From: Nymphaea colorata | Lineage: Eukaryota > Streptophyta > Magnoliopsida > Nymphaeales > Nymphaeaceae | Direction: 5' to 3' | DNA length: 64,000 nucleotides | NCBI RefSeq assembly: GCF_008831285.2 | Contig: NC_045139.1 | Span: forward strand, 7,348,204 to 7,412,203 | Shown: positions 16,740 through 58,891 of the stretch, in pieces | Numbering within the stretch: the first letter of the stretch is position 1 | Layout of the letters: each line of letters begins with the position of its first letter | Program-made: the position numbers and the translations under genes | The notes under the pieces: model-generated | What the model was told of the DNA's origin: nothing | Databases searched by the model: none | Seen by the model: only the letters and a program-made list of their open reading frames with translations

Positions 16740-18094
16740 ATAACTATATTTGTGATTATACTGAACTAGTATGATCAAAATTAACCTATTTGTTAGCTCT
16801 ATAGCTGATTTATAAGTTTCAGATTTCGAAATATTTTAACATTTCAATTATTTTTGTTTTTAGGCCATAATTTTTTAATATTTTCTGGCCAATGCACAAC
16901 CAATTCACTAAGAAGGCAGCACTGCCAAACAAACTAATTTTTACGATCCTTGTTTAAAAGTCATGCATATTCTTGACATTCTAGGTGTGTAATTAGGAAG
17001 ACAAGTCAAATTACGCATAATTTTATTAAATGATAGTGGCAGCCTTTTTTTTTCCAATTTCCAATTTCCGAGATCTCTTCAAGAAAACAGTGAAAGAAAT
17101 TCAACATAGAAAAGGTGGCAGAATTGAGGTGTGTTATATTTCTCACATAATTAATGAAGAAGAGAATCTCTTCGGAGGAAGAAAGAAAATAAGGAACCTT
17201 GTAAAGAGAGAATCTCATTTCTAGATTCGTAAAATTAAGTTGACTTTCTTTTATCATATCCAATATCATAATCAGATTGAAATAAATAATAATATTATTA
17301 CCTTTTATTTCTTATTGAAGGCGCCACTTGACAATTACTTATTGAAGGCTTACTTTTACTGATATCATATTTAAACTGATCGTAAATGCGATTGAGGTAA
17401 ATAATGAGAGTGACAACCTTTTATTTTTCTTATTAGATGCATGCTTCATAATCTGGGTCCTACTTTTATCATCCTCTTATTTAAATTAAACTGAACAACT
17501 TAGGTTCGTTTCTAAATCAATTTTGGGTTCATTTCTAGAAAGAAGAAGAAGAAGAAGAAGAAGAAGAAGAAGAAAGGAAGCCGTTAAAGGAAGAATCTCA
17601 TTTCTAGATTCAAAAAAATGAACATAAGAAGGTGGGAGACTGTGGAGAGGTTCTTACTGGTTAAGAGAACCTGTCAAGAGACGGCATTCTCAAGCATGCT
17701 TCTTGTCATTTGGAAGAAGGAAAAGGAGGAGGAGAAGGCAACCCATTAAAGAGAGGATCTCACTTCTATATTCAAAACAGATAGGCAAATTTTATGACAA
17801 CTACCAATATCGTTGAGTTTTTCTTATGATCAGAAGGGGCCAATTAATATGCTTTAAAGAAATGTCAGGAGGAGCCCTGATGTTTACATTTTTTAAAACA
17901 TTAGAAAGGTTTTTTTTTTTTAAAAAAAAAAGATCGGTTCATAATGATATTAAATGACTGTGATGATCAATTATGTATCTTTTTTAGATTAAACAACAAT
18001 GTTCCAGGGCCGCTTCCCAGTTCCACGACGGGTGACAGAATTTCATAGAGACTTTACTCAATTGCTAGAAAATCAGCAGTTGGTATACATGGGA
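16740..18094 (+). repeat. Direct repeat R (copy 1), outside the left arm
   Basis: It matches 37,660-39,023 in the same orientation, for example CTGAACTAGTATGATCA at both starts, the GAA microsatellite (17537-17575 and about 38519-38540) and GGTATACATG at both ends. It contains no gene. Here it continues into the left arm, whereas copy 2 joins the inner end of the right arm. Confidence 0.85.
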
Positions 18095-18229
18095 TCTCCA
18101 TCTGTTCCATCTGCTTTAATTTGCTTTCCTGTATGATAGATGACTAAATTAGTCTTGTTGCATTAGTGCCCCACATTGGGTTGTCGATTGGATCCATGAT
18201 AGTTTGCGTTTCGAACCAAATATACTTTT

Positions 18230-18700
18230 AACGATATCTGTTTTTTCTGGATATTCATATACTCGGCTTCCAATCAAATATGCTTTTAACCATATCCATT
18301 TTTTGGATATTCAAATACTGTGATTCGAATACGAACAAAGAAAAATTATACCTGAATCTGAATCCGAATCCGAAATCTGATTTCATAGTCTGAATTTGAT
18401 CTGAATCAGCTCTTTACATTCATATCTGAATCTGAATCTACATTTTGAACTGAATCTAGCCAATTTTCAAAATATAAGAGCCTTCACAATATGTTTTTTA
18501 TTTAAAACTAAATACGATCTGAATCCAATTAGATATTTATATATATTTGAATCTGAATCCAATTAGATATTTATATATATTTGAATCCGAATGAATGTCA
18601 TTCCTTAAATCTGAATCCAATCGGATTTCTTAATAAATATTAATTTTGTTCTAGATACGATTTTTCCAAAATGGTTCGGTTGAATATCTGATTCAAATAG
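18230..18700. repeat. GAATC-rich degenerate repeat
   Basis: A run of imperfect GAATCTGAATCCGAA-type units. Related stretches occur at 32,190-32,470, 41,840-42,300 and 58,270-58,740, which are the mirror positions within the arms. No coding content. Confidence 0.6.
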
Positions 18701-21449
18701 GATATAATGAAGTCCTTAGCTTGTATTGAACTTCTCTAAACATGAGTTGGACCACCATAAGACTAATCAAATGGTTTTGTTTGGGAAAAATCCCAAAGTT
18801 GGTAAGATTACAAAGACATCAATAGGTTTTTCCCTCTACTCGTGGCGCTTCACTAAACACACAAGGAAATTGCGCCATAGTTGGGCACAGCTTTCTCTCT
18901 ATATCACAACATTTCCTACACTGGCGAAGGATTGACTTGGTCATGTTTTTATGGCACAACAAGCGCCCTATGTTATAGAAGTGTTCCAGTGGCAATTTGT
19001 TTTCTAACGTTGCTGAAATCTTTTGGTAATGCACGAGACTGGTTGCGATTAGACAGATTTCATCTACATTGTAGATCTCATTGTGTTACAGAAATCTCTT
19101 AACAAAATTCCCGCAACTTCAACTTTTTCACGTTCTTCCTATGAAAGATTTTTCTTGTGGGCGTTGTTCCTCTATGTTGTAAACAGTGACATGCACAACA
19201 CTCAGAGTTGGATAGTCTCGAGTTTTGGATAGTCTCTATCATATGATCAATGAAATCTCAAAGCAGCCCTAAATCTTAAAGCCACCGCAAGGCAGAAAAG
19301 GGTGGCTTCGCCTCTAGAGGACCGCCAAATTCAATAAGAGGCCGAGAATATTGGAAAGAATGAGCAACGTGTTTTCTAAGGAAATTGATGAGAAATACAA
19401 ACCAACCAAAATTAATGACCAACTCTCTGTTACATATCCAATATCATACCACCACTTTAGTTCGATTTAAATTTTATTTAATTTTCTTTGTGCTTTGACA
19501 GCTATGAACATTTAAGGGACTAGGAGATGTAGAAAGACCTGCAGTAGTTTCTTTAAAAGAAATCGTGTGAAAGGTACAGTAGGTGGAGGGATTTCTTTTC
19601 CTTACATTAATAATTAACCAGTAGTTCTTCCTCACCAACCTTTCCACCACGTTTATGAAAGAAGAAACCGAAAAAATTGCACGTCTCAAGAATATGTTTG
19701 ATTTGTATAACCAATAAAGTTTCACAACATTTATTTACTTTGATTATCTTGGGTGCTATCTCTATATTGCAAATGGTGGCATGAACGACTCTTGAGTTAA
19801 ATGGTATATCATAAGAACACCAAAATACATATATACTTGTAAGAAAGAAAGAGGAAAGTGAAAAAAGAGAAGAGGGAGACCCAAGGAAATGGACTCGTTT
19901 AAAGATGCCTAAACGGTTGAAGGCAGTAGCAGTTAACGTGGTGGGTACTAGGTGACATCAATGGCAGTTTGGTTCGATCATATTGTGGACACTGAATCAA
20001 GTATATTGAGCCTGGCTGCCAGCCCACTTGTCATAGATTTGTTATTTTGCGACAGCTCTGACACCTTTAATTTCTAGAGCCCCTTCTCAAAGAGGTGATT
20101 GATGCATCAGCTAGTCAAGTACTCCAAATATAGTATGGGTCAAGGGCCAACTCAAGTGGGTTCTCGATGGGGGCGTCCTACTCCTTGAAACATGAATATG
20201 GGTTAGCTCCACGAGAATAAATTTATTTATTTTTTTAACCATATGTTTAATGACTCATAGAAAAAAAAAATTTTGGGTCTGCCGTTGTTGGTCTGAGTAT
20301 ATATTCTTCTTCTTGTATCTAAATTGAAATAGTTTACCTTGTTCTTGAATTTTCAGCAAGTTTGAATATGATATATAACGGGCGCACTTTTGAATCAAGT
20401 TTGAGTTTTATCAAGGGGTTCAGATAATAATTTGGTCAATGTACTATAATTTGGATCCTGCTTACAAAGAGACCGAGCTAAGAGTATTCAGATAGATATG
20501 AGTAGGACGTACCGGCGCTTATTGGACTATTCATATATTTTTAATCTTTTTTATAAAAATATGATTCTGTAGATGCAATATCCATGTTCAGAAGCATTTA
20601 AGATTACAAGCAGATTATGTTTTTATGTCGCATAAGAAAATATTTTACGGTATAAAACATTTCCTCGGTTTGATTTCTTAATCTTTTTAGATTCTCATTT
20701 TCGTAAAGGAAAAATATACTTTTTTATAAGAATCATCGTTGTGAAGGTTTTGGCACATATAAAATATTAAAAAATGAAATTGGTCTCTCTCTCTCCCTCT
20801 TTCTCTCTTTGGCACCAACTATACTATGCTCGCATGACATAAGAAACATATGATTTCGATACACTCACATACATATAAAACAGTTCAAATTTTGTACTGG
20901 TTAAAAATGTTTTTGGAAACCAGTCACGATTAAAAATAGCTTATAATGTAATTTATGATATGGATCCAACAACCCGTGTTTCATTGTTAGTCATTCTACA
21001 ACAGGTACATATATATAAAAAAAAATTGAATAGTAACTTTAGCTTTTTAAAGTTATTATCTATATCTCGTAAGAGTCATCCGATCCATCATTATGAATAG
21101 CTAAGAGAAAAAGAGAAAAACAAAAAGAAAAAAGTGATATTGTTTTCATGTAGTATTAGTTTTCACATTTTTTTTCATGTTAACCATCCATCCAATTAAG
21201 ATGGACGGCCCTCACTAGATGGCAAGGTTATTTGCATTTTTTTTTATATGGTTATCATGTTTAAAACCGTCAAAATTAACAAAAAAATCATAAGCAAAAA
21301 GGAAAAAGTTTATGAGAGAGGAATTTGTCTAAGGCCCAGTCAAGATAACGATACTACTGTCGCTAATTACAATAATAATACTAACGTTGATAGTAATAAC
21401 CAAATAGTATTGCTTAGACCATCTCTCTTGAACTGATTGGAGAATAGTG
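18701..21449. other. Left-arm intergenic DNA 3' of KCR-A
   Basis: No gene recognised. 19,474-19,735 mirrors one unit of the tandem array at 57,110-57,330. 20,090-20,290 belongs to a dispersed family also seen near 33,300, 40,900 and 54,000. 20,780-20,815 is a CT-rich microsatellite. Confidence 0.55.
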
Positions 21450-23693
21450 TCAGGATTCCTTGGAAGAGAGCCGCTTCTTCATGACCTTCTCTCGTACGAC
21501 AAGGGAGTAGCGACGGAGCCACCAATCTAGAAAGGCATCAGGCAGAAAGCGCGCAGCAAGCGATTGGACGGAGTGAGTCCAGTAAGGAACACAGACGGCG
21601 TCGTGCCCCACCCAGCGCAGGCACCACCCTGCGTACTTCTCTGCTGTGGGAGCGAAGAGGGAAGGCTTTATGTTCGACATCTTTGTTGACACAAAGAAAG
21701 GAACCTGCAACCAAATTAAACACATACATGTAAGTTGTAACTCAAATTCTCCGGCCCCTTCAACAACACAGTAAAAATAAGAAGAAAAAAGAGAAAGAAG
21801 TTAGCTAGCTGCACCCCGTTAAAATCTTTCAAGGAATCGACTGTCTTCTTTCTGAAAACTGTACTGTCAAGTGAAAAATATTACTGGATTTTGATGGGCA
21901 AGTGTATTTTCTAAGGGGTCTAACGTAATTAAAAATGGAAATTGTGTATGATTGAACGTTTTAATGTCAAAATGTATAGCTTTTGATTGAGCGGAAAGGC
22001 TCCAATTACATATATCTTGTCCAAAAAGGAGGATTGGATGAACGATTAATGGAACGCATTGTGATTGAGTATGTTACGAATGAATGATCGAGTCTAGACG
22101 AATGGAAACTGAATGAATGATTCATGCAGAGTTTTGCAGCTTACAAGATCAGTTGCAACTTACCTGACACTGAACATCAATCCCATAGGGTTTATATTCG
22201 ACGCTGAGGCTCCTGGAGAATTTCTCTATGTACCTGCGACCAATACAACAATGTTTGACCACTGAGAATGGTATAAATCCTTCCCTCTCGAGCTATATGC
22301 GTTCCATACATAGGATATGAGAGAAATCGTCCAGCATGTTTCAATTCGCGCTCGTGCGTGCGCGCGCACACACACACAGACAGAGAGAGAGATGCCCTGC
22401 CATTCCATTCTGTGGTCCTCCGGCCTCTCGTCGTTTCCCCTTCTTCTTGAAATCATGAACAGCAGAGACAGGGAGGATGGTGAGAAGGCTGGTAAAGAAA
22501 CTAATCCATAGTAATGGCCTCCTTCAGATCTAAAATTCTAGCCTATCAAAGGCAACCATAATTTGCTTCACTAACTTGGATCTCCTCATGAGGTTTACGG
22601 CGTTCTACTATATATTGCATCACCATCAAACAGACAAAGAAACGAGTACACAGGCAATGCATTCATCTTGACATTAGGAAAAGGAAAATTCTGGTTTTGG
22701 CAATTCATCTTATTTCACCATTCTGCTACTGCCAAACCCGTGCTGTAACAACCAGATACTCAAACGGCTAAAAGTTGAGCAGAAGTCAGTAGCAGATGTG
22801 TGCCTCTTGGCATAATCTTCTAAGGGTCTGCAATATTGCAGCTGCTGATAAAATAGAAAGGGCGACAGAGGGGATATCCATGCCAACTCCTTTCTCTGTC
22901 TGTTTACTGCTTCTTTAAGACCAGTTAAAGATAAAATCTAATAAACAGAAGCAGGAAAGAGATAGATCGAAAAGCATCTCGGTACCCAAACCAGTTCATT
23001 CCAGAGAATGGGGCTTTCTAGATCCTGAAGATGTACTGCATCCTGCAAAACAAATTAACAGTAAAAGAAACTGAAGACTTACGCTTTTGTAGCAGCATAG
23101 ATTGTATATAGGGGGAAAGATGGCAAAATTATGCCAGAACCAGACCCAATGTTGACGATGGCTCCCCTCCTCCTCCTCACCATTCCTTGAAGCACCACAT
23201 GAGTCACCTTTGTTGTTACCACCACATTGATTCCTATAACTCTCTCTATCATCTTCTGGTCAAGCTCATGTGAGAACATAGGGTGATGATTAGTTGTCCC
23301 AACATTATTGATCAAGACGCCGACGTCCAAATCCTTGATCCCTTGCTCTACTCTCTCAACCACGTCATCCGAATCTTCAGCAAAATCGCATACTACGCTT
23401 TTGATCTGGACGGCGGCGAACCGTTGCTGGATTTCGCTAGAGACCGAGCTCAACTTGGCAGGGTTCCGGCCGACTAGGACCAAGTTGAGGCCCTCACCAG
23501 CCAAGCTAAAGGCCATGGCCTTCCCTATTCCGTCGGTAGGGCCTGTAACAACAGCCCAAGGACCATACTTCCTTAGGTCCTTCTTGGGCCTGAGAAACGA
23601 GGCCCAGACCCATCTCAGAATCGCCACCAATGCTTTGAATAGAGAGAAAAGGCCTATGAGAGTTGAAAGAGTGAGCAAGAACCTGAACTCCAT
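21450..23693 (-). CDS. KCR: KCR-A: very-long-chain 3-oxoacyl-CoA reductase-like protein, 3 exons, intact
   Basis: Short-chain dehydrogenase of the KCR1 type, which uses NADPH to reduce 3-ketoacyl-CoA in the ER fatty-acid elongase. Exons: 23693-23083, 22233-22164, 21704-21450. All introns are GT-AG and phases match (611, 70 and 255 bp), giving 311 aa against 318 in Arabidopsis KCR1. Residues 5-30 form a hydrophobic membrane anchor. TGPTDGIG (50-57) is the cofactor loop, NNVG lies at 129-132, catalytic Ser is near 184-186, and Tyr199 and Lys203 form YAATK. The C-terminus is lysine-rich (KKRLSSKES), fitting ER retrieval. The start is set by the only in-frame ATG after a TAG and by a TATA box 47 bases upstream. 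It could also act as a hydroxysteroid dehydrogenase, since the two families overlap. Every hallmark is intact; KCR-D is its inverted, broken twin. Confidence 0.92.
22351..22391. repeat. CA/GA microsatellite in KCR-A intron 2 side
   Basis: CACACACACACA followed by GAGAGAGA lies in intron 1 near exon 2. The mirror position in KCR-D (about 47,677-47,712) is a TG run flanked by GAGCGAGCG. Confidence 0.8.
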
Positions 23694-23739
23694 CTTGCTC
23701 TACTCGAGCAATGGTAGCATTTCTGGGAGAAGAATAGGT

Positions 23740-23745
23740 TTTATA
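23740..23745 (-). promoter_or_regulatory. KCR-A TATA box
   Basis: TATAAA on the minus strand in the context GGTATAAAACC, 47 bases upstream of the ATG, implying a very short 5' UTR. KCR-B and KCR-C have a TATA box at a similar distance. KCR-D has TCTAAA at the same place. Confidence 0.7.
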
Positions 23746-24563
23746 CCGAGGAAGATATTAAACAGAAGTTTCATTCAGTTGCAGTGGGATTAACTAAGTT
23801 AATCGGCACTTACAGTGGGAATAGTTCAGTTAATCAGCTTTCCGGCAAAGGTACTACCAAGTGGCGCCGGAAATCACGCCGTCTGTACTTGCCGTCCGTC
23901 GTTACCCATATGCCTGGTGAGTTCGAATTTAAATGGTGGTTACCCATAAAACCTTATCGTTTGCACTAGCAAGACGTGGCTGTTAGATAACCTCTTCCTC
24001 CGCGTGCTTCACTGGCAGACAAGGATCGGAGAGAAAAGAAATCCTTATCTTCATCATCATTGAAGATGGTGATAGATGAATTAAAGACGTAAAAATTTGA
24101 AACAATTATGTTCCATAAAATTTCCAAAGATAACGGTTGAAATGATTCTTTAAGTTCTTCAATCTCTCAAAATATAAGTATAATATACATGGGTAAATTG
24201 AAATTAACCGACTGGCCAATGGCCATAAGGTTATTTTTCATTTTACGTCACAAAAGCCCAACACAAAATATATATTCGGTCGTTAAAGCCTGTGGTCTGT
24301 TCTTTGCACATGCACACTTTTTTTGTGTGCATTTAGTGACACAAAGCTCGATGATTCCAATTTACCTTTCATGAAAATCTTGTGTCTAATACTTTCTAGT
24401 CACGTCACTTTTGAGGGGTTGTTTGATTCATTTAAAACAAAGATGGTTAAAATAAAGGAGACATTTTGACATTTTTTTTCTTTACTTTCTTTTTTAACAT
24501 CAATGGTATTAAGCAGGTCAGCAGAGTCATCATTTACTCATATTTTATATAATATATATGTAT

Positions 24564-24613
<50 letters not shown>

Positions 24614-25234
24614 AGACACATGACACCCGTGGCCTTATTCATACAACATCAGGCAGCAGGTCCAATTTTCTATGTACAAACCAGTGGACGCACACATATA
24701 TATATATATACATACTTATCTATGTTATATTGGTGCAATGGATAAGCATACAATTATCTTCCGTTCACGCAGAAAAAAAAAAAAAACTTTTTTCCGTAAG
24801 GACAAAAATAAAAGCAAGAACAGTAAAAAGATAAGAAAGAATATTTCTTTTTATAAAATTACAAAAATATCTCTTCCCTCTTCGAGCAAACGAAGGCAAC
24901 TCCCTCTCATATAATTATAGTTCCCTGCATATAGTTTTGTCGTGACGGAATACAGGGGCCCATGCATTTAACTCAATGGTCGAGGCTTTATTGACAAAAA
25001 TACCCTCACAGAAGAAATCGGTAACAAAAAACTTACGGCTGCTCCTCCGGACACAATTATCAAGGTGAAGGAACAAATTTCTTAAAATATAAAAAGAAAA
25101 AAACCCTATATTTTATAAAGACAAAATTGCCCCTCTCGTGCCGGCATGATGCCTTACGCTCTCTCGTTTGCCAGTATGTATAGTGAGTGGCACGTGAGGC
25201 TCGAACTTCATATTTTGAAGGGTCTGGTTCAGGC

Positions 25235-25273
<39 letters not shown>

Positions 25274-25812
25274 AGACCTTTGTAGTTTTCATTCTTTTTT
25301 CAATGATATGGATGTGAAGTAGTTTATAACCAAAACATTACAAGTCTATGTAAACTTGATATTTTTACGTGCTTAAGCAAGCCATCGTAAAACCATAATC
25401 AACTGTCACAAGTGTTTCATTTTTTTGTCTTAATAAGCAAATCTACAAAAGTGCAAGTTGGTATAAGAAAATTAAAATCAGCCGTCTACCGCCGTAATCC
25501 GTAGCCATATGGGTAATTTTCCATTTTGTGTCGTTAAACATTATTGCAAAGGATACATTCTATCGCTAAAGTACCCGGCCAAGCAATTAGGAATGTTTTC
25601 AGTAATACAAAATGAAAAACAACTACCTAGTCGTAGAGGTACGTAGCCGGCTGTTTTCAATTCTTACATATATGTACAAAGAATTAGTCGGAGGCCTAAT
25701 CAAGATAATTGGCTAATAATAATAATAATAATCATCATCATAATAATCGTAATAATATTCATAAGCAAAAGTATTGCTTAGACATTCTCTCTCTCTGATA
25801 TGAAACGTTGGC
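23746..25812. other. Left-arm-specific intergenic DNA
   Basis: No gene recognised. It holds a GA microsatellite (24567-24604) and a TA microsatellite (25239-25270). 24,770-24,890 resembles 56,040-56,150 in the same orientation (A-rich with AAGGACAAAAA), so a small dispersed element is possible. Most of this stretch is absent from the right arm. Confidence 0.5.
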
Positions 25813-28800
25813 TCATGACTCCTTGGAGTAGAGGTGCTGCTGCTTCATGGCCTTCTCTCGCAGGAGAAGAAAGCAGCGAAAGAACCACCAATCCAGGAAG
25901 GCATCGGGCAGAAAGCGTGCTGCAAGCGACTGGATGGAGTGAGTCCAGTAAGGAACACAGACGGCGTCGTGCCCTACCCAGCGCAGGCACCACCTTGCGT
26001 ACTCATCTGCCGAGGGAGCGAAGAAGGAAGGCCTTATTTTCGTCATCTTCGTTGACACATACAAAGGAACCTACACCCAAATTAAACGCATGCATGTACT
26101 GTAATGTAACAGAAATTCTCAGGCCCCTTCAACAGCACAAAACAAACAACGCAAAACAGCAAGAAAAGAGAGGGGGAAAGGCCGGATTTTAGTTTCATAC
26201 TCCTCTTAAACTATTTATGGAATCAACAAGTCTGTTTCTGAAAAATGGAAGTTGCTATAAAGCAAGATGTACTGTTAAGGCCGCCTTCGATGACTCTGGT
26301 CAGTTTTGATTGAGTCTATTATGAATGAATGATCGAGTCGAAATGAATGGAAACTGAATGAATGATTCATGCAGAGTTAAGATCAGTTGCAACTTACCTG
26401 ACACTGAACGTCGATCCCATAGGGTTTATATTCGACGCTGAGGCTCCTCGAGAATTTCTCTATGTACCTGCGTCCAATACAACAAATTATTTGACCACTT
26501 TCAACATTATTTTCTCCCTACCTACATGCGTACAAGGGTGGAGTCCGCAATTTTTTGTCGCAACACCTATTTTAATTTTAATATGTGTCAAAATAAAAAA
26601 AATTCAATTTTTTATATGTATTAAACTAAAATTTTTTGGATTTATATATAAACTTTTAAAGTTTTTAAAATCTAAAGAAGACCAATGCATACACCAAGCA
26701 TACAAACCACAGCCACAACCACAAATGTCGTTTTAACAATGAAGAGAAAGATATAGTCATTTTCATAAAATTATCTTAAAAATTAGAAAACAATAAACAA
26801 AATATGAATTTATTAAGATATCATCTAAAAATAAGTAGATAAGCAAAAATAAAAATTTAAAAGTAGAAACATGCAGTTTGACATTAAAAAAAATATGCAA
26901 AAACACTTAACATGAAAAAAACAAGAGAAAACACGTTTTATTTCCATTTAAAAAAAAAACATCATTTTTTGGCAATATATTAAGTTGACATGACGTACTT
27001 TTTACTTTTTTAACGCTTTTTTTTTTGTACTATGGCACAAACAAAAAGAGCACCCACAAAGAGTTAAATTTTACGCTTAGTTTCCATTTGGCTTTAGTTT
27101 GCTTCACTAACTTCACCTCATAAGTTTTACAACGTTCTACTACTCTATACGTTGCATCACCATCGAAGAGACAAAGCAACTTGCACAACTTTCTTTCGCT
27201 TATCTCATTTCACTGTATAAACAGACCCTTCAAATAAAATAAAACAAAGGGCATCAAACTCTCTTTCCCTCTTTTATTAGGGTGCCTTCAGCCCTCGGCA
27301 AGGGTAGATGTAGACGTAACCATATGGCAGCTTTCATGACCTTCCTTTTTGTTCGGTGTTTTGATTTAGATATAACGAAAAGCCATTATCAGACTACAAA
27401 AATTAGGGACAAGAACAAACCCCAAAATAGAAGCAAAAGAGAAAATATACAATAAACTTAAAAAAAACGAAATAAGAGGAATGAATAGAGAGGGAGAAAG
27501 AGAGAAAGAGAGCTTTTACCCCATATCTAACAGGAGAAGCTTTTTAGAGAAACATTTCAGTTTGTTTGCACTTTTTACTTATTTTCAGCATGAAAAGTGG
27601 GTAAGAAAATGGAACGCATATAAGAAGAAAAAGTTTTCAACCTCTTCTAAGTACAAAGTAAATATTTAAGTGAATATTTACCTTGTATGGTTGTTTTTCA
27701 AAGCCACACACCGACATGGAACTAGGGAATGCATTCATCTTGCAATCAAAGACCACCGGTAGACAGTTCCGTTTTGAAAAATTCATAAATTTTTGAGTCT
27801 AGAAAGCTGTTCATTTACGAAAAGAAATTTATGGTTTTGGTACAATTACAAAGAGACATGCTTTTACTTATATTGTTCCTAACATCTTCTTCTTTCATCA
27901 TTTTCCTACTGCAAAACAAAACCTGTGCTGTAAGAACCATGATCGTCAAGCTGCCAAAAGTGGAGAAGCAGTCAGTAGCAGATGTATGCCTCTTGGCGTA
28001 ATCTTCACTATTGCAGCTGCCGATAAAATAGAGAGAGCGACGGAGGGGATATCGAACTCCTTTCTCTGTTTACTGCTGCTTTAACACCAGTTGGAAAGAT
28101 AAGATCTAATAAATCGAAGCAGGAAGGAGATATTCTCTATCTCGGTACCCAAACCAGTTGGTGCCAGAGAATCGGGTTTTCCTGGCCCTGAAGATGTACT
28201 GAGTCACGCATGACAACTTAAGAGTAAAGAAGTCATGTATATATATATATATAAGTCTCTTTCCACAAAATTCTTGCCTCACAAAGTTTTTTTTTTTTAA
28301 CTTTCATATGGGTGTCTTCAATAATGTACTAACAAATTTATAGTTGCTTGAACAATATTTTTCAGAATTTTTACAGACTAAATTAAAATTTTTAAAAATA
28401 TAAGTATTTTTTCCAAAATATGACGGAGGCCATGGCCCTGCCAGCCTCCCTTCCCTCCGCTCCTCCCCTCATCTCCTAACCCTACCCTTCCTGCTTAACT
28501 TCTCATTAATGTGTCCAACGGACTCCAACAGCGACTACCGTTCAGTTGGTGAGTATCTTAAATCCCTCCATGAATTCTTTGTTTAATGTCCCCAAGAAAA
28601 CTGCACCCAAGAGACTATCTAAAAAGGAAATTTTCTTTTTCTTTTTTCCTTTATTTCTTCCTGCTAGTGGAGAAACCACATTGCAAATGGGAGACCAGTC
28701 CCCCACTGGTTTTTTCCTGCTTTAATTGCAGCACCTTCGGCATCGTTTGATGTTGGGTAGAATTCCAAAACAAGCTCATGCTTTTAATGTGCTAAATATT

Positions 28801-31673
28801 AAAATAAGTTACACATACTGCATGATCCGTAACTGTTAAATTGACCATTAATGCAGGCTATTTTTAATGGTACCCATTAATGCCTCGCCAACATCAAATA
28901 ATATAAATTTTTTTCGATTGTCCCGATAAATTTGTAATCTTCCCTAACTGGAGAAGATAGAGACATAGAGTTCGGAGTTGGTAAAACACTTAGATGGTAA
29001 GTGGTAAGTAGAGGGAAGCAGCTAACGTATGTTTCTGCACGAAGAGACGTGGAAACAGGCGCCAGCTTGAGTGCTTTCTGAACTAAATTTAGAATTTTCA
29101 ATGCTTTCTTGAGTGTTTGTTTGGCATTGAGAGAGTGTTTAAATATATTTTTGACACACTTAGTCCGCATAATATAAGTGCGTCACATACTAATTAAACT
29201 AAGTGTCGGTGAAATTTATTTCATTAATTTAATCACATATTTTATTTCATATTCATATTTTGTTTGGCTTTTTTACCTTGCCCTTAGAGACAAGGACCAA
29301 AAAGAATATTCAGCTGACACCTTATCTTTAAACTGAACGAGTTTTTTTAGATGCTGACATCTGATATGACTGATAACTTAACAGGATTTTCTTTTCTTCA
29401 CTTGAGATTCGATTGTCCTGAAGAAAGAGGAAGCACTTTGTACAAAAATAACTTGGTTTCTGATGTTCTATTGCTTCGAGTAGGGCCAGGAACCAAGATC
29501 TGCATGAGAAACGAGATATATTTTATGTTTCTCAAAATTTATGTTACTCCAAGGTCTTTACGCTTTCCTTTAGTTTTCTGTCTTCTTTTTCCAGAATCTA
29601 TGTTTTATCTCATGACATAAGTCCAGACCCATAACTTACTGGATTTTTAATTTAATTTGACATCGATCTCCACAACTTGAATCCTAGTTGAGATCACGCC
29701 AAATAAAACGTTTAGCTCCTCTGCTATAGAGAAGATGCTATTACCTGCCTATAGATAGCTATGTTCTAGATTCCGTATTTTTTCCTTTTTTTGGTGAGAT
29801 TTATGATAATATAAGGAAAAGTAAAAATGTCATGTGATCATGTAAAAGCTCCTGCTCGATCTTGCGTTTGTGTTGTACCACCTTCCACAGTTAATTGCTT
29901 CATGGTGGTTTTCTTGGATCCCAATTTGTAAATTTATGTTTCATTTCCTTGCAACTAATGTCTAAGGTGACCTACGATCTGATTTCTGAATAACTTAGAT
30001 TTCAAGACTTCAAGCTTTTGATTTCTAAAATGCATCCATTGTGTCATAAGTTTATAGAATCTTTCTATAAAACCTAGCTAGTCTTCTTTTATGAGACTCC
30101 AAGCACTTCGTCGTTGAAATGCAAACATAAAATCAAACCTGAAAAAAACTGTTTGGCAGTATCAAGAATATAGAGAACAAGAGATCCATGTTCAGGCACA
30201 TCTTGGGAAGGTGCACCCATAATCAGTAGCTAATTTGGGTCTAGACACATGTGATGCCCACACTAGACCTAGGTTGGTGCTCTGCAAGTACTCATCCTTC
30301 TAAGCCAGAGACCAGTTAATACCCTTCAGCAAAAATTTTCTAGCTATGCGGTGGCCCATAATGGATGCTTTCCGTATAAAAACGACCTCACATTATTCTC
30401 ATGTACATACCAGCCACACATTATTTTCGCATTTATTGGGGGAACTCTTACTTTTGGCACAAGCAGTAATGGCATTCTAGGTCTTGGTTCTTTTGTTTCT
30501 CTGACTTGACGTAGGCCTAACGAGAAGGCATAGCCACGAAGGTTGGAGTAGGAACTGTTTCCGGAAGGAGAGAAAATTGCAAGGTCAGACAATAGATTTG
30601 AGACAAAGAAGTCACAGAGTTCTGCCATGAAACTTACAGAAACTTTGGTGCCTGGCGAAACAGTTTGTTTTAGAACAGCTGCTAACGACCTTCTTGTTTT
30701 TATTTTCTGGTTTTGGCACAACGAGAAGCCATTTCACTAATGTTGTTCCTAAACTCTTCCTTTCATTTTGCTACTGCAAAACCTGTGTCCTGAAGATCAG
30801 ACTTCAGACCTTCAAATCAAAGGTAAAGAAGCCAGTAGCAGATGTGCACCTCTTGGCATAACAGAGGGAAGGAGAGGGAGGATACCCAACTCCTTTATAT
30901 GTTTTCTGCTGCTTTAAGTTTTGGAAAAGAAAAGAAATCCAGCAACTTGGAAGGGCAAAGGGATATATATATACATATATATATAATGAAGATTAACTGA
31001 ATCATGCATGACAACAGTGAGAGGAACTGAGGACTTACCCTTTGGTTGCAGAGTATATTGTAACAAGGGGATAAGATGGCAGAACAGAAGAAGCACCAGA
31101 TCCAATGTTGACAATCGCTCCCCTCTTCCTCTCCACCATTCCTTGAAGCACCACATGAGTCACCTTTGTTGTTCCCACCACATTAACACCAATCACACTT
31201 TCCATCAACTTCTCATCAACTTCATGTAAGAACATTGCAAAAGGGTAAGTAGTCCCAACATTATTGATCAAGATGCCAACATCCAAATCCTTGATCCCCT
31301 GCTCTATTCTCTTAATTCCATTCTCCAAATCTTTTGCAAAATCGCATACAATGCTCCTGACCTTGACGCCGGCGAACCGTTCCTGCACTTCGCTAGAGAC
31401 CGAGCTCAGCTTGGCAGGGTTCCGGCCTATTAGGACCAAGTTCAGGCCCTCGCGAGCCAGTTGAAAAGTGGTAGCCTTCCCTATACCATCAGTAGGACCT
31501 GTGACAACTGCCCAAGAACCATACTTCTTCAGGTCCTTTTTGGGCCTAAGGAATGAGCCCCAGGCCCATCTCAGAATCACCACCAATGTCTTGAGTAGAG
31601 AGAAAAGGCCTATGAGTGTTGAAAGAGTGAGCAAGAACTTGAAGTCCATCATCTCCTTGAGAAATTGAAGCAT
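25813..31673 (-). CDS. KCR: KCR-B: composite KCR-like gene, 3 exons with a 4.6-kb first intron
   Basis: Exons: 31673-31039, 26467-26398, 26070-25813. Splice sites are GT-AG and phases match, giving 320 aa, or 312 from the ATG at 31649 that aligns with the KCR-A start (MDFKFLL). The upstream ATG lies only about 35 bases from the TATA box, so the later one is plausible. Exon 1 carries the anchor, TGPTDGIG, NNVG, the Ser region and YSATK. Exons 2-3 carry VEYKPYGIDVQCQ and the C-terminal domain ending YSKES. Intron 1 contains the same KCR intron cassette twice (27,820-28,230 and 30,700-31,038). The inner copy stops just short of where an exon 1 should begin. So exon 1 and exons 2-3 probably derive from different copies. 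The reading frame is intact, but whether this 4.6-kb intron is spliced is unknown. Confidence 0.75.
28230..31038. other. KCR-B intron 1, outer part
   Basis: It mirrors 43,444-46,260. It holds TA and T runs near 28,240-28,305, a possible small dispersed element (28,270-28,460), and an open frame on the minus strand at 30,344-30,721 (125 codons) whose mirror at 43,747-44,142 is also open. I do not recognise that product, and most differences between the two change the amino acid, so it is probably not coding. Confidence 0.45.
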
Positions 31674-31705
31674 TTCAGTGGTATGATGTGAGGGAAGGAT
31701 AGCTT

Positions 31706-42773: not shown

Positions 42774-42805
42774 AATCTGCCCTTCCCTCACATCATACCA
42801 CTGAA

Positions 42806-46435: not shown

Positions 46436-46441
46436 TCTAAA
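46436..46441 (+). promoter_or_regulatory. Degenerate KCR-D TATA box
   Basis: TCTAAA in the context GGTCTAAAACC occupies the place of the KCR-A TATA box (GGTATAAAACC). One base has changed. Confidence 0.6.
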
Positions 46442-46817: not shown

Positions 46818-47100
46818 GTTATAGATGTTTTTCCTGAAAAGAATACTTAAAAAACAATAACCAGTCAAGAACAACTCAAATGGTTTCAAACTTCAAACAT
46901 TCATATATCCAATAATTACGCAGCTAATGACAGACTTAAGCATCAACATAACATTCTAACAAGCCGATTTCATAACAGAGATTGCATAAAACTGTTGAAA
47001 ATCAAAATCACTTAAGTGCTAGCACAAGATTGTGATCCCAACACCAACATTGCAGCAATATCTATCAAAAATATGCTAGATAATGCAGACAGAGATGCTT
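46818..47100. other. Foreign segment replacing the end of KCR-D exon 1
   Basis: AT-rich sequence with no match to KCR-A at this position. KCR intron homology resumes at about 47,100. Origin not recognised. Confidence 0.6.
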
Positions 47101-47676
47101 CTGTTTATTAAATTTTATTTTAACTAGTGTTAAAGCAGCAGTAAACAGACAGAGAAGGGATTTGGCATGGATATCCCCTCTATCACCCTTTCAGTTTTAT
47201 CGGCAGCTGTTCTTCTCCACTTTTAGCCGCTTGACTATTTGGTTGTTACAGCACAGGTTTGGCAGTAGCAAAATGGTGAAAGAAGATGGATTGCCAAAAC
47301 CAGAATTTTTTCTTTTCCTAATGCCAACTGCTTTTGGAAGTACCAAAAGTTAAAGGCCTCATAACGAAACCGTCAAGATGAATGCATTGCCTGTGTATTC
47401 GTTGCTTTGTATGTATGATGGTGATGCAATATATAGTAGAACGCCGTAAACTTCATGAGGAGATCCAAGTTAGTGAAGCAAATTATGGTTGCCTTTGATA
47501 GGTTAGAATTTTAGATCTGAAGTCAGCATGAAGGAGGCCATTACTATGGATTAGTTTCTTTACCAGCCTTCTCACCATCCTCCCTGTCTCTGCTGTTCAT
47601 GGTTTCAAGAAGAAGGGGAAACGACGAGAGGCCGGAGGACCACAGAATGGAATGGCAGGGCAGCTCTCTCTCACTC

Positions 47677-47712
47677 TGTGTGTGTGTGTGTGTGTGTGTG
47701 AGCGAGCGAGCG
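47677..47712. repeat. TG microsatellite in KCR-D intron 1
   Basis: About 12 TG units followed by GAGCGAGCGAGCGCGCG. Mirror of the CA/GA run at 22,351-22,391. Confidence 0.9.
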
Positions 47713-48352
47713 CGCGAATTCAACCATGCTGGACGATTTCTCTTTGATGATTTCTCTCATATCCTATGGGACGCATATAGCTCGATAGGGAAGGATTTAA
47801 ACCATTCTCAGTGGTCAAATATTGTCGTATTGGTCGCAGGTACATAGAGAAATTCTCCAGGAGCCTCAGCGTCGAATATAAACCTTATGGGATTGATGTT
47901 CAGTGTCAGGTAAGTTGCAACTGATCTTATAAGCTGCAAAATTCTGCATGAATCATTCAATCAGTTTCCATTCATCTAGACTCGATGATTCATTCATAAC
48001 AAACTCAAATCACAACAGGTTCCATTAATCATTCATTAAATCATCCTTTTGGGACAAGATATATGGAATGGAGCCTTTCCGCTCAATCAAAAGCTATACA
48101 TGTTAGACCCCTTCGAAAATGCACTTGCCCATCAAAATCCAGTATTATTTTTTACTTGACAGTACATTTTTCAGAAAGAGAACAGTCCATTCCATGAAAG
48201 ATTTTAACGGGGTTCAGCTAGCAAACTCTTTTCTCGTTTTTCTTCTTATTGTAATGTGTTGTTGAAGGGGCCGGAGAATTTGAGCTACAACTTACATGTA
48301 TGTGTTTAATTTGGTTGCAGGTTCCTTTCTTTGTGTCGACAAAGATGACGAA

Positions 48353-48357
48353 CATAA
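48353..48357. other. TE2 target-site duplication, left copy
   Basis: CATAA before TE2 is repeated at 52464-52468. KCR-A has a single copy at the homologous site, which confirms the empty site. Confidence 0.93.
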
Positions 48358-48988
48358 TGAAAAGAGTCATCACCGACTCTTGAGAAGGGTCGAGAAGACC
48401 CAAGAGGCTACAAGCCTCTTCCGTTTTTTTTGTAAGTCGGTGGAAGTCTTCTCTCTTAAGTCGTGCTTGTATAGTGGGTGAAAAGAAAAATAATTAAAAA
48501 AGAAAAAATGGAAGCTTCATCCACCGACCTCCTCTCCCTATAAATAGGGATGGAGGGCATAGCGTGTGTGCATGAAAAGTGAGTTGCTCACTTGGTGAGC
48601 TTGAGCGTAGTGTGTGAAAAAGTGTGTGTGAGTCTTAGTCTATGTGCTCACTTTGTGAGCTTGTGAGGTGTGTGAGTTGGGTGTGCTCTATTTGTGAGCT
48701 TGTGAGTGTTACCTCGTGTGTTCACTTTGTGAGCTCGAGCGTTGCAGTTTCAAGTGTGCGCTGCAAGAGCGTTGGGTGTGTTAACTCACTGCGTGAGTCG
48801 AGGTGAGTTTTCTTAAGTCCTCTTTTGTAATATCCAGTTTGATGAATAAATAGTTTGCTTGTTCAAGTATACTTTGCCAAGTTATTATTGAGTATCAGTT
48901 TGGACGTCGAGACTCTGTTGGATTTTCTCCGTATAAATTCGAGTTTGTAGTTGAGTTATATTTAGGGCCCGCATTACGTTTTCCAACA
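48358..48988 (+). repeat. TE2 5' LTR
   Basis: 631 bp from TGAAAAGAGTC to TTCCAACA. TATAAATA at 48539-48546 is the likely promoter. Four hairpin-like units of the type GCTCACTTTGTGAGC occur at about 48586, 48646, 48685 and 48720. Confidence 0.95.
48539..48546 (+). promoter_or_regulatory. TE2 LTR TATA box
   Basis: TATAAATA in the context CTCCCTATAAATAGGG. The copy in the 3' LTR is at 52014-52021. Confidence 0.75.
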
Positions 48989-48990
48989 AG

Positions 48991-49002
48991 TGGTATCAGA
49001 GC
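48991..49002 (+). other. TE2 primer-binding site
   Basis: TGGTATCAGAGC, complementary to initiator-methionine tRNA, two bases after the 5' LTR. Confidence 0.92.
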
Positions 49003-49051
49003 GAGGTTCTGTCCGAAGGCCGATTTATTGGAATAGATATATCCTGAAGTT

Positions 49052-49861
49052 ATGGCGGCATTAGCGGTTGCATTAAACAATATTGAGAAACTTAACAATA
49101 ACAATTATGGCTATTGGAAATCATGTATGGAGTCGTATTTTCTAGGACAAGAATTATGGGAGATAGTATTGGGATCAGACACTAATATTCCTATCGACGA
49201 GGAAGCGAAGAAGAAATGGATGATCAAAGCAGGAAAAGCTTTATTTGCAATTAAGGTATCAATCGAGAAAGATTTATTAGAGCATATACGAGATGCTACG
49301 ACTCCTAAAGAAGCATGAGATGCTTTTGCAACTCTATTTTCTCGAGCTAATGATGCCCGCCTACAATTGTTAGAAAATGATCTAGCTACATTAACTCAGG
49401 GAAGCATGTCGATAGCAGAATATTTTATGAAAGTTAAAAATATCTGTAGAGAGATATCTCAAATTGATCCTGAGTCAAAGATCAGTGAGACCCGTATACG
49501 GAGAATACTTATTCACGGACTTCGTCCAGAATTTGGCAGTTTCATAATTGGTGTTCAAGGCTAGCCAGTTCAACCAACTTTGTTGGAGTTAGAAAATCTC
49601 TTGATCAATCAAGAAACATTAGCGAAACAAATGGTCGGGCTTTCTCTCAAGGGAAATAATGATGAAGCTTTGTTTAGTAAGGGTCAGAGATCACGATGGC
49701 CAGCTAAGCCAGTCATTAGGTCTCCAAGTAGGAACATTGATGACAAGAAAGAGAAAAATGTACAAAAGAAAACAAGAGAAACTACACAGCAGTGGAGACC
49801 AAAGGTAAAATGTTTTAGATGTGGGAAATTGGGTCATATTGCTCGTGACTGCACAGAGTGA
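49052..49861 (+). pseudogene. gag: TE2 gag with two in-frame stops
   Basis: One frame from ATG 49052 encodes a Copia gag: NNYGYWKSCMESYF near the start, a UBN2-type region (LATLTQGSMSIAEYF), and a CCHC zinc knuckle CFRCGKLGHIARDC at the end (about 49,810-49,855). It is interrupted by TGA at 49316-49318 and TAG at 49562-49564, both where related gags have tryptophan. Its final stop TGA is at 49859-49861. Pol continues in another frame. Confidence 0.9.
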
Positions 49862-49884
49862 GAATAAATTAAGGAAATGCAGTC

Positions 49885-51820
49885 ATGATAAGTAAGCAAG
49901 ATGGGGGAGCTAATGAGACTGTACAGAAAAGTTCGTTTTTGTACTCAATGGAGGTTAAAGAGGATGTTAAACAAGAAAGATGCAATTCCGCCCATATAAA
50001 ACCTCCAAAAGAAAAAGAAGAGAAGATCAATTATCAAACTGATTGGATAATTGATTCTGGATGCTCAAATCATATGACTGGTGATGAAAACAAGTTTGTA
50101 AGTCTAAAAGAATATGATGGAAATCGAGTTGTTGTTACTGCTAACAACACAAAGCTCCCAGTGGCACATATTGGAGAAGCAGAGATTATAGCCAACTTCG
50201 GTAAAGACCGGATTTTACGGAACGTTTACCATGTTCTAGGAATGACAAAGAATTTGTTGTCTGTGCCACAACTTACAGCTTTAGGGCACTATGTTGTGTT
50301 CGGCCCAAATGATGTAAAAGTTTATAAGGATGCAGATGTTCAAGGAACTCCCATGTTTGAAGGAAGGAAAGTTGAGTCAATATATGTCTTGTCAGCAGAA
50401 ACAGCATATATTGACAAAGCAAAGAAGCATGACACTGCAGATATCTGGCATGAGAGACTCGCTCATGTTGGATACAACAAACTTCGGGAGATGTCTAATA
50501 AGGGACAGTTGATTGGTCTGCCCAAGCTTGAGGTACGAACAGATAAAGTATGCCCAGGATGTCAGTATGGAAAGGCGCACAGGAGGCCATACAAAGAATC
50601 AAAATATAGAGCTAAAGCGCCATTCGAACTTGTGCATTCAGATGTATTCGGCAAAGTACCAGACCCATTAGTTGGAGGTAAGTGGTATTTTATCACTTTT
50701 ATTGATGATTTTTCGAGATATACTTGGGTCTATTTTATGAAAGAAAAGTCTGAAGCACTTGAAAAATTTAAGGAGTTTCACCAGATGGTGAAAAAAGAAC
50801 TTGGGCATAGAATTCGGTGTCTACGAACTGATAATGGTGGCGAATATACATCAGACATGTTTATGACATACTTGAGGCAGCATGGTATTCGTAGGCAATT
50901 CACATGTGCCTATACGCCACAACAAAATGGAGTGGCAGAAAGAAAAAATCGTCACATAGCAGAAACATGTCGAAGCATGATGCATGCAAAGAACATGCCA
51001 CCAAGATTTTGGGCCGAGTGTGTCAGCACCGCTGTACACGTAATCAATCGATTACCAATGCCGAGATTTAATTTTAAGTCTCCATATGAAATGCTACATA
51101 AAAAGAAACCATCTGTGAGTTATTTTAGAGTATTTGGTTGTGTTTGTTATGTTTTTATATCTGAGCAGCACAGGACTAAGTTCGACAAAAAGGCACAGAG
51201 GTGTGTCTTTGTTGGATATGACCCATATCGGAAAGGATGGAGATGCGCTAATCCTAGCACTGGACAAGTCTATGTCTCTCGCAACATCATTTTCGATGAA
51301 GCATCATCGTGGTGGTCAGAAGAGAAGAAGACGCTTCCAGACTCTTCAGTTCTTGAGAGAGATGTTCAAAATAAAATACAATTTGAGATAAATCAAGGAG
51401 AGCCTGAGCTTGAAGATACAGAAGCAAGACGACCTGATAAACAGGTCCAAATGTCTGAACATAGTTCAAGACAAGAAGGACGAGCAGATCCATGGAGAAC
51501 AGGAGTAAGTCCAATCCAACAAAAAACTGCAGAAGAAGAAAGACCATCACAACTTGAAGAGCCAGAAGAAGCACCAATAGCACTAAGAAGATCAACAAGA
51601 ATACGAAAACCAAATCCAAAATATACAGATGCAGACTGTGCTATCATGGAGGAGATCGACCCAGCTTCTTTTGAAGAAGCAAAAGATGTTGAAAAATGGC
51701 ATGCAGCATTGGAGCGTAACGAGACTCGAGAACTCATACGAAAAGCTTACCAGTGCAAACATTTACCAAGCTTGAAGAATGTTAAGAGTCATGAGTCGAG
51801 AGTCGGTAATGAGGGGGAGA
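49885..51820 (+). pseudogene. pol: TE2 protease and integrase, no RT
   Basis: Open from ATG 49885. It contains protease motif IIDSGCSNHMTG (about 50,050), the GAG-pre-integrase zinc region (WHERLAHVGY...CPGCQYGKAH), the integrase core (HSDVFG, LRTDNGGEY, NGVAERKNR) and a C-terminal ALRRSTRIRKP segment. Then KWHAALERN would normally lead into RT, but the frame reaches the polypurine tract within about 35 codons. No QLDVKNAFL, YVDD or RNase H motifs exist. The frame runs into the LTR and stops at 51937-51939. Gag is offset by one frame. Confidence 0.92.
51811..51820 (+). other. TE2 polypurine tract
   Basis: GAGGGGGAGA, one base before the 3' LTR. Confidence 0.8.
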
Positions 51821-51821
51821 T

Positions 51822-52463
51822 TGAAAAGAGTCATCACCGACTCTTGAGAAGGGTCGAGAAGACCCAAGAGGCTACAAGCCTCTTCCGTTTTTTTTGTAAG
51901 TCGGTGGAAGTCTCCTCTCTTAAGTCGGTGCTTGTATAGTCGGTGAAAAGAAAAATAATTAAAAAAGAAAAAATGGAAAACAGTGGAAGCTTCATCCACC
52001 GACCTCCTCTCCCTATAAATAGGGATGGAGGGCATAGCGTGTGTGCATGAAAAGTGAGTTGCTCACTTGGTGAGCTTGAGCGTAGTGTGTGAAAAAGTGT
52101 GTGTGAGTCTTAGTCTATGTGCTCACTTTGTGAGCTTGTGAGGTGTGTGAGTTGGGTGTGCTCTATTTGTGAGCTTGTGAGTGTTACCTCGTGTGTTCAC
52201 TTCGTGAGCTCAAGTGTTGCAGTTTCAAGTGTGCGCTGCAAGAGCGTTGGGTGTGTTAGCTCACTGCGTGAGTCGATGTGAGTTTTCTTAAGTCCTCTTT
52301 TGTAATATCCAGTTTGATGAATAAATAGTTTGCTTGTTCAAGTATACTTTGCCAAGTTATTATTGAGTATCAGTTTGGACGTCGAGACTCTGTTGGATTT
52401 TCTCCGTATAAATTCGAGTTTGTAGCTGAGTTATATTTAGGGTCCGCATTACGTTTTCCTACA
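51822..52463 (+). repeat. TE2 3' LTR
   Basis: 642 bp. It has an extra G near 51,927 and an extra ten bases (AACAGTGGAA-like) near 51,979 compared with the 5' LTR. TSD CATAA follows at 52464-52468. Confidence 0.95.
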
Positions 52464-52686
52464 CATAAAGCCTTCCCTCTTCGCTCCCACAGCAGAGAAG
52501 TACGCAGGGTGGTGCCTGCGCTGGGTGGGGCACGACGCCGTCTGTGTTCCTTACTGGACTCACTCCGTCCAATCGCTTGCTGCTCGCTTTCTGCCTGATG
52601 CCTTTCTAGATTGGTGGTTCCTTCGCTACTTTCTTGTCGTACGAGAGAAGGCCATGAAGAAGCGGCTCTCCTCCAAGGAATCCTGA

Positions 52687-56159
<3,473 letters not shown>

Positions 56160-56911
56160 CTGTCGTGTTGAAGACGGCTTTGATAGTTGAGGCGGAACCG
56201 CTGGCTAATTATTATTGAAAGGAAAAAAAATCCCACTATACCAATTGTTCCTCTCAGGCGACTTCTTTTAAAGAAGCCATTTCTTTATCTAGCTACATCA
56301 CCTGGTCCCTTAAATGTTCAGTGCTGACAAAGTACAAAGAAAATTTAATTAGATTTTTTGTAACTTTTTAGTATCAATTTTTTATCTTTCTAAAAAGATT
56401 TTCTTTGTTTATTGACCAAGGATATTTTGGTCATTTTATACCCTAGTGCACAACTCCAAGGGTGCATGTAACCAGGCTTCAGAACTAAGAGCAAGATACT
56501 GGTTATGTAACAGAGAGTTCATCGTTATTTCCGGTTGCCTTATGTTCCTGCTATTTGTGGCGCTATTTGTGACGCGCTTTCATCAATTTCCCTTCGCAGT
56601 AACGTGGTTGAAATCGCCTTGGCCTTGGAGGCAGAATCCTTGGCTAATTATTAATGACGGCATTTAAAATTCCTCTACCAACTGTACCTTTCACACGGTT
56701 TCTTTTGTAAGGAAACCACTGTATATCTAACTACATCACCTAGTCGATCCTCTAAATGTTCAGAGTTGTCAAAGTACATAGAAAATTAAATAAATTTAAA
56801 GCGAACTAAAGTGGCGGAGCATAAGCTTGAGCGAAATACTGGTTATATAACAGAGACTTCGTCATTAGTTCAAGTTGCCTTCTGTTGCACATCAATTTCC
56901 TTAGAAACCAG

Positions 56912-57010
56912 AATGGTGTTGCAAATATTGCTCATTTTTTGCACTATTCTCGGCCTTCTGCACATTTGCTGAGCTCTTATGGAGTTTGTAAGGCAGGCGA
57001 AGCCACTCCT
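56912..57010 (+). pseudogene. KCR exon-1 fragment 1
   Basis: The ATG at 56912 opens a KCR-E-like N-terminus (TILGLLHIC, then TGA, then ALMEFV). Only the membrane-anchor part remains. The premature TGA replaces an arginine codon of KCR-E. Clearly dead. Confidence 0.75.
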
Positions 57011-57399
57011 TTCTACTTTGCCCTTAGGGTAATGCTGCTTCGGGATTTTGGTAGTCTTAATAACCAAATCTAATATATTCTTGAGACGTGCTTTTTTTTC
57101 AGTTTCTTTTTCCATCTCAAAAACGTGGTGGAAAGGTTGGTGAGGAAGAACTACATGTTAATTCTTAATGTAGGAAAGGAAATCCCTCTCTCTACCTACT
57201 GTACGTTTCAGGTTTTCGCGCCATTTCTTTTAATGACTACTGCAGGACTAGCTACATCACCTAGTCCCTTAAATGTTCATAGCTGTCAAAGCACAAAGAA
57301 AATTAAATAAATTCAAAGCGCACTAAAGTGGTGGTGGTCCGATATTGGTTATGTAACAGAGAGTTCGTCATTTCTTTTGGTTGCGTTGTATTGCTCATC

Positions 57400-57505
57400 A
57401 ATTTCCTTAGAAACCAAGTTGCTCATTCTTTCCACTATTCTTGGCCTTCTGCACATTTGCTGGGCTCTTATGGAGTTTGCAAGGTGGGCTTGGGAGTCTT
57501 TTAGA
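57400..57505 (+). pseudogene. KCR exon-1 fragment 2
   Basis: Encodes LSTILGLLHICWALMEFA followed by RWAWESF, matching the KCR-E anchor and WVWASF segment, then ends. No start codon and nothing downstream. Confidence 0.75.
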
Positions 57506-57600
57506 TGCGAAGTCACCCTTTTATGCTTATCTTTTAATATTTAGGGCTGCTTCGAGATTTCAGTGATGATTTTATGATACATCTTTTAACTCGATTATTA

Positions 57601-58891
57601 TTCATGTCACTATTTACAATATAAAAGAATAATGCCCACAAAAATCAAATTAAGAACGTGTTGAAAAATAGGACTCATATCCAGCGCTACCCTTTGATCG
57701 ATGGTGTCGTTATCTGCAATCAGTGGGGAGCTCAGGCTTGATAATTGGCCATAAAACAAGACGAAAATGACTAGAGCAAATAGAAGCATCAAAGAAGGAA
57801 ACGACACGTTTGAGAAATTTGGAAAATCTTTCATAGGAAGAACATGAAAAAGTGGGGGGTTAACGGGAATTTGATAAGAGATTTCTGTAACACAATGAGA
57901 TCTACAATATACATGAAATCTGTCTAATCACAACCAGTCTCGTGAATTACAAAAAGATTTCAGCAACGTTAGAAAACAGATTGCGTTACGGATACATAGC
58001 CACGGGAACACTTTTATAACATGGGGCGCTTGTTGTGCCATAAAAACATGACCAAGTCAATACTTCGACAATGTAGGAAATGTTGTCGTATAGAGAGAAA
58101 GCTATGCCCAACTATGACGCAATTTCCTTGTGTGTTGAGTGAAGCGCCATGAGTAGAGAGAAAAACCTATTGATGTCTTTCTAATCTTATCAACTTTGGG
58201 ATCTTCCCCAAACAAAACCATTTGATTAGTCTTATGGTGGCTCAACTCATGTTTAGAGAAGTTCAATGCAAGTTAAGGACTTCATTATATCCTATTTGAA
58301 TCAGATATTCAACCGAATCACTCCGAAAAAATCGGATCTAGAACAAAATTAATATTTATTAAAAAATTAGATTGGATTAAGATTTAAGGAATGACATCCA
58401 GTCAATTCAAATATGCATAAATATCTAATTGGATTCAAATTGAATTTAGTTTTAAATAAAAAACATATTTTGAATGCTCTTATATTTTGAAAATTGGCTA
58501 GATTCAGTTCAAAATGTAGATTCGGATTCAGACATGAATGTAAAGATATGATTGAGATCAAATTCAGATTATGAAATCAGATTTCAAATTCAGATTCAGG
58601 TATAATTTTTCTTCATTCGTATTCGAATCATAGTATTTGAATATCCAAAAAAATAGATATAGTTAAAATTATATTTGATTGGAAGCTCTGAATATCTAAA
58701 AATACATATATTGTTAAAAGTATATTTGGTTCAAATCTGATCTGTTTGACTTCCCTAACACAAACTATCATGTAACACAAACTATCATGGATCCAATCGA
58801 CAACCCAATGTGGGGCACTAATTGCAACAAGACTAATTTAGTCATCTATCATACAGGAAAGCAAATTAAAGCAGATGGAACAGATGGAGAT
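57601..58891. other. Outer right arm
   Basis: Mirror of 18,094-19,400, with no gene recognised. GAATC-rich repeat at 58,270-58,740. Confidence 0.55.

Follow-up and report, generated by a model that had tools for sequence, protein, structure and literature searches.

The 64,000-nucleotide stretch of Nymphaea colorata analysed here (RefSeq assembly GCF_008831285.2, contig NC_045139.1, positions 7,348,204 to 7,412,203; hereafter the window, whose own numbering we use throughout) contains two long, oppositely oriented copies of a small cluster of genes that we take to be of the KCR (plant beta-ketoacyl-CoA reductase) type, together with two copies of a 1.3-kb repeat, R, that point the same way. 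Self-BLAST of the window places the left arm at 18,094-34,700 (16.6 kb) and the right arm at 39,024-58,891 (19.9 kb), with outer ends at 18,094 and 58,891, inner ends at 34,700 and 39,024, and 4.3 kb between them. Along the plus strand the order is the sequence left of R (L), R (16,757-18,091, plus strand), the two bases GG (18,092-18,093), the left arm, a spacer (34,701-37,667, plus strand), the second repeat copy R' (37,668-39,023, plus strand), which adjoins the inner end of the right arm, the right arm, and the sequence beyond it (F). Both R copies end in the same sequence, GGTATACATG. The junctions of the arms and of the R copies are sharp to the base, and base 18,094 of the left arm corresponds to base 58,891 of the right one, the former adjoining R and the latter F. 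Two long copies of opposite orientation on one chromosome make this, within this assembly, an inverted segmental duplication. Chance is ruled out, several self-BLAST blocks having E printed as 0.0. The match is discontinuous and consists of aligned blocks separated by large indels: 4.5 kb of the left arm (23,792-28,275) face just 0.3 kb of the right one (46,087-46,389), and between 19,153-19,933 and 54,329-57,822 the alignment is weak and limited to partly repeated pieces. An original prediction made by reading the letters of this DNA had given the same arm ends, the direct orientation of R with a shared terminus, and a sharp outer breakpoint at 58,891, and self-BLAST returned all three. Its start for R (16,740) was 17 bases early, the "40-kb" it assigned to the duplication is right as the total span and too long for the arms themselves, and the coincidence of the outer ends to the base was not remarked on.

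The two genes of the left arm, a and b, are intact and lie on the minus strand. Gene a (21,450-23,693; 311 aa) has coding exons at 23,693-23,083, 22,233-22,164, and 21,704-21,450, and gene b (25,813-31,673; 320 aa) has them at 31,673-31,039, 26,467-26,398, and 26,070-25,813. Each has three coding exons, GT-AG introns, and no internal stop. The first exons match the Pfam family adh_short (E 3.9e-30 for a and 9.8e-30 for b), which places the core of a short-chain dehydrogenase/reductase (SDR) in both. Many SDR models of NCBIfam were matched as well, all those shown scoring under their curated cut-offs, and the best-matching solved structures are other SDRs, e.g., HSD17B13. Both translations contain TGPTDGIG, and they read YAATK in a and YSATK in b; These agree with the nucleotide-binding motif TGxxxGxG and the catalytic motif YxxxK of a plant KCR. 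The KCR label, which we presume to be apt, comes from the SDR domain and these motifs rather than from a named plant KCR. The genes look like fatty-acid elongation reductases, and a true KCR would reduce 3-ketoacyl-CoA in the elongase. In Arabidopsis, KCR1 alone of two homologues is described as complementing yeast ybr159 (PMC5008698).

The right arm, in which no intact KCR-type gene was found, retains parts of both genes on the plus strand. The first exon of b' (42,806-43,444) is open and has 94% of its residues as in b (201 of 212 identical; Ks, the synonymous divergence, is 0.054, and Ka, the nonsynonymous one, 0.023). Exons 2 and 3 of b' were not found in the right arm by tblastn, because the left-arm stretch that holds their counterparts, 23,792-28,275, is the one with so little opposite it. 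Exon 1 of a' (46,473-46,829) has lost its 3' part, exon 2 is present (47,841-47,909), and a copia element on the plus strand (48,358-52,462; long terminal repeats, LTRs, at 48,358-48,988 and 51,822-52,462; target duplication CATAA) interrupts exon 3. This element is absent from the left arm, which keeps the uninterrupted site near 21,668-21,673. Its 684-aa frame carries integrase domains and no reverse transcriptase (RT) domain, so the element appears internally deleted. The losses in the right arm thus combine missing exons and a younger insertion.

Further pieces of the family lie outside the paired genes. The spacer holds a truncated copy on the plus strand, KCR-c, with part of exon 1 (34,780-35,145; its motif reads TGPTDEIG) and exon 2 (37,484-37,552); no exon 3 was found by tblastn. 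R might have supplied this missing exon, a candidate that we rejected since tblastn found no exon 3 in R either. We likewise set aside the idea that R is a mobile element or a gene: one of its frames (17,009-17,311) has no Pfam match, and R, compared within the window, shows no clear homology to the arms (a single 30-bp match, E 0.009). Repeated promoter and exon-1 fragments of the KCR-c type occur on the plus strand of the right arm at 56,189-57,502. The same arm contains a perfect (TA)63 run at 54,327-54,452, next to 2.5 kb of sequence with additional KCR fragments, absent from the left arm.

The divergence between copies gives the relative ages of these parts. Summed over seven aligned blocks, with 19,153-19,933/54,329-57,822 and other unaligned stretches left out, the arms differ at 982 of 10,413 compared sites (9.4%). 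Blocks range from 3.3% at the inner end (92 sites) to 12.7% at 19,934-21,673, a block that includes two poorly aligned intervals. R and R' differ at 119 of 1,257 sites (9.5%). Because the two values agree, R can be counted as part of the duplicated unit, probably copied along with the arms. For the copia element of the right arm, the LTRs show 10 differences in 631 sites (1.6%). R and the arms look equally old on these counts, and the insertion much younger. The divergence between a and b (Ks 0.41, Ka 0.12) marks them as an older gene pair than the arm duplication. No clear tract of gene conversion between the arms was found, the intervals of low divergence falling on exons except for the outer 100 bp. 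At that outer end (18,094-18,210 and 58,774-58,891) the 100 outermost aligned columns are all identical, compared with about 8% divergence across the whole block, which may reflect a conserved element, conversion, or chance.

These ages bear on one way of obtaining the layout, in which the spacer would have been inverted by staggered breaks that copied the arm at both ends, R and R' being an older inverted pair that flanked the arm. R and R' would then predate the arms, but their divergence is equal to that of the arms; the ending of both R copies at the same base would be a coincidence; and the arms are far longer than the duplications of one published study, which measure 59-540 bp. We regard such a history as extremely unlikely.

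Which arm was turned can be read, in our view, from a paralogue that crosses one of the seams. The right seam, between R' and the right arm, lies at 39,023/39,024, and the sequence spanning it (38,991-39,043, plus strand) recurs at 44,052-44,106 on the plus strand (41 of 55 columns), downstream of b' exon 1 in the right arm, and at 30,434-30,380 on the minus strand (40 of 55), in intron 1 of b in the left arm. The two recurrences represent a single site, in intron 1 of b, that both arms carry. Within the match, 33 bases belong to R' and 20 to the arm, and a pattern built afterwards from it has three matches in the window, at exactly these three places. We scored each half of the seam alone, by extension anchored at the seam, against random 36-mers (6,000 draws, from which 49 and 44 near the true sites were dropped, leaving 5,951 and 5,956; an earlier run had used 3,000 draws without excluding those near the true sites). 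The R' side scores 11 (12 for the left R), with a null maximum of 9 in 5,951 random 36-mers, and the inner end of the arm scores 14, with a null maximum of 10 in 5,956. At the left seam, the sequence after R scores 1 (p 0.52), i.e., the match does not continue. A later inversion joint would not show a match to an older intron on both of its sides, which argues that the right seam is old and that the left one, between R and 18,094, is new. The left arm would then probably be the inverted copy, to be read on the minus strand, and the right arm would keep the old order on the plus strand.

Two further features point the same way. First, the KCR matches with E up to 0.01 in tblastn lie on the plus strand in the spacer and the right arm and on the minus strand in the left arm; a uniform head-to-tail array results if the left arm is turned back. 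The plus-strand orientation of KCR-c, shared with the right arm, agrees with a flip of the left one. Second, the KCR-c promoter resembles the fragment near 56.83 kb as far as 34,701, the very edge of the left arm, and no farther, although the promoters of the fragments near 56.8 and 57.3 kb still resemble each other farther upstream (score 19, null maximum 8). With one likeness cut and the other continuing, the boundary 34,700|34,701 looks like a new joint.

The best explanation of the locus, which we hold to be probable on this internal comparison, is that a tandem KCR-type cluster was duplicated as units of R plus arm and that the left arm was flipped. The original prediction had likewise proposed a tandem R-arm-R-arm followed by inversion of one arm, a layout that stands, with the left R stopping, as it requires, at the base where the inner end of the arms starts. 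It had made the second arm the inverted one and left the first in its old orientation. Such a history takes the same number of steps and equally gives R and the arms a single age. It would make R|18,094 old and R'|39,024 new, leaving a new joint that matches on both sides an intron already in existence. Before the inversion, KCR-c in the spacer would also have pointed against the rest of the array. The matching of the right seam, and not of the left one, to the older paralogue on both sides leads us to consider an inversion of the right arm unlikely.

In the order of events that we favour, the copied unit would have been R followed by the arm, in the orientation of the right arm, and two copies would have been placed in succession, separated by the truncated KCR-c fragment of 3 kb. 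In the first, left copy, the arm would have been rejoined back to front after breaks at the seam between R and the arm and at the outer edge of the arm. End joining is the likely repair route because the left seam carries two extra bases and no repeat shared by the break sites was found; the search for repeats able to support non-allelic homologous recombination at the breakpoints covered the window. In these comparisons, the spacer had no match to F and only AT-rich matches to L, and the start of F had no match in the rest of the window. Since the outer ends of both arms stop at the same base, the flip would either have accompanied the duplication or have fallen exactly on its edge. The right arm would later have decayed by exon losses and the copia insertion, and the flipped left arm would have kept both genes open.

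The shared outer base is also what template switching during replication would account for by a single event: R would have been copied, followed by a jump to the outer end of the arm on the other strand and copying back to the seam. The stop at the very base where R had been left would then be a coincidence, and an inversion needs none there; we judge this route very unlikely. In a history of one step, three breaks in sister copies, with one fragment rejoined in reverse, would yield the same outer base without coincidence, and duplication and inversion as a single compound event may be a serious alternative to two steps. In its specific form, a broken copy of the arm was joined in reverse between sister copies in one germ-line event, so that both arms end at one base beside different partners, and the flipped copy is the one whose genes kept working. 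This would match, in a plant, the parallel breakpoints of human disease genomes; we put it forward tentatively, as possible though doubtful.

Several points weigh against the flip of the left arm that we favour. First, a two-step history needs an inversion break within about two bases of the edge of the duplication. Second, a single paralogy of about 53 bp (41 of 55 columns), read inside one genome, carries most of the weight for the polarity. Third, KCR-c may be foreign filler, in which case its orientation proves little. Fourth, anchored extension gave no order for the joints between L and R and between the spacer and R'. L, extended into the spacer on the left of R', reaches scores of 0 and 1 (p 1.0 and 0.41). 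Fifth, the outer end of the arm compared with the KCR-c joint gives p 0.005 and 0.0075 when the two extra bases are left out and 0.19 when they are included. This is a weak hint, dependent on how the joint is written, that the outer end once preceded KCR-c; if it did, the boundary between 58,891 and F would be a second break. Last, the arrangement could be an assembly artefact in which two related loci or subgenome copies were misjoined. The arms differ by 9.4%, more than two haplotypes would in most plants. In addition, the seams are base-sharp, the promoter paralogy of KCR-c being cut at one exact base by one of them, and the derived left seam would need a real rearrangement anyway. We think a misjoin very improbable.

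The surroundings of the joints were also compared with the AT-rich simple repeats of the window, in which there are 10 (TA)n or (AT)n runs with 8 or more units. Three of the six joints lie within 100 bp of such a run (74, 1, and 75 bp), whereas 3.6% of random points do. One site, present in two copies, accounts for two of these three, and the remaining joints have their nearest run 1.3, 2.6, and 4.4 kb away. A role of AT runs as fragile sites is suggestive only.

The Ty1/copia elements of the window, along with the GT-AG introns of the KCR-type genes, mark it as plant nuclear DNA. A second copia element occupies 2,955-8,555. Its LTR-like repeats share 98.8% identity, gag lies at 3,989-4,921 and integrase and RT at 5,083-8,307, and G+C-rich tandem repeats (3.27-3.8 kb) precede gag. 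Frames for copia gag, integrase, and RT lie on the minus strand at 59,898-63,961, just past the right arm. By eye, a frame at 14,851-15,201 on the minus strand resembles the zinc-binding region of a non-LTR retrotransposon, and scattered frames at 9,831-13,114, also on the minus strand, resemble what we presume to be exons of a HAD/CbbY-type hydrolase, two of them having no Pfam match. A Pfam search of ten frames left nine without a match at E 0.05 and returned for the other a weak DOMON match (E 0.024) under the cut-off. No Rfam family reached its gathering score in the window, and no transfer RNA or transfer-messenger RNA was found there.

The processes invoked here have precedents among known systems. 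The DILTAG model, a standard one as its authors outline it, derives tandem gene clusters from direct and inverted tandem duplication, deletion, and inversion (PMC3283317), and the neighbouring paralogues of our locus resemble such clusters in having been shaped by duplication, deletion, and inversion (PMC3283317). Unlike in those clusters, a duplicated non-genic segment, R, and a paralogue at the seam allow a guess at which copy was flipped. In maize, the ends of Ac are described as able to generate tandem duplications (PMC3744419). Clustering of KCR genes in a plant is shared with Macaranga, for which a KCR gene cluster is mentioned on chromosome 1 (PMC13394177); a limited literature search found no published account of such an arrangement in a KCR cluster. 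Breakage-replication/fusion is described as producing adjacent parallel breakpoints in human disease genomes (PMC12807874), and the likeness lies in two copies of a segment with the same end base and different partners (PMC12807874). One of the two outer joints here may, in contrast, simply be ancestral. Finally, the soybean I locus is presented as an inverted repeat of chalcone synthase genes (PMC6710647, PMC3804491) and as a case in which a plant metabolic gene family can be silenced by inverted repeats of its own members (PMC6710647). Our locus resembles it in that a duplicated cluster of plant metabolic genes forms an inverted repeat, known here from sequence alone; the exons of b and b', however, point away from each other.

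The locus thus offers layered dating in one place, with the duplication that gave a and b (Ks 0.41) followed by that of R and the arm (9.4%) and then by the copia insertion (LTRs 1.6%). It also indicates how the turned member of an inverted pair can be identified from a single genome, by means of a paralogue that runs across a seam. If the single-event history is true, this would be a plant example of duplication and inversion arising together; otherwise, the locus would represent ordinary gene-family evolution and a tidy case of how tandem clusters evolve.
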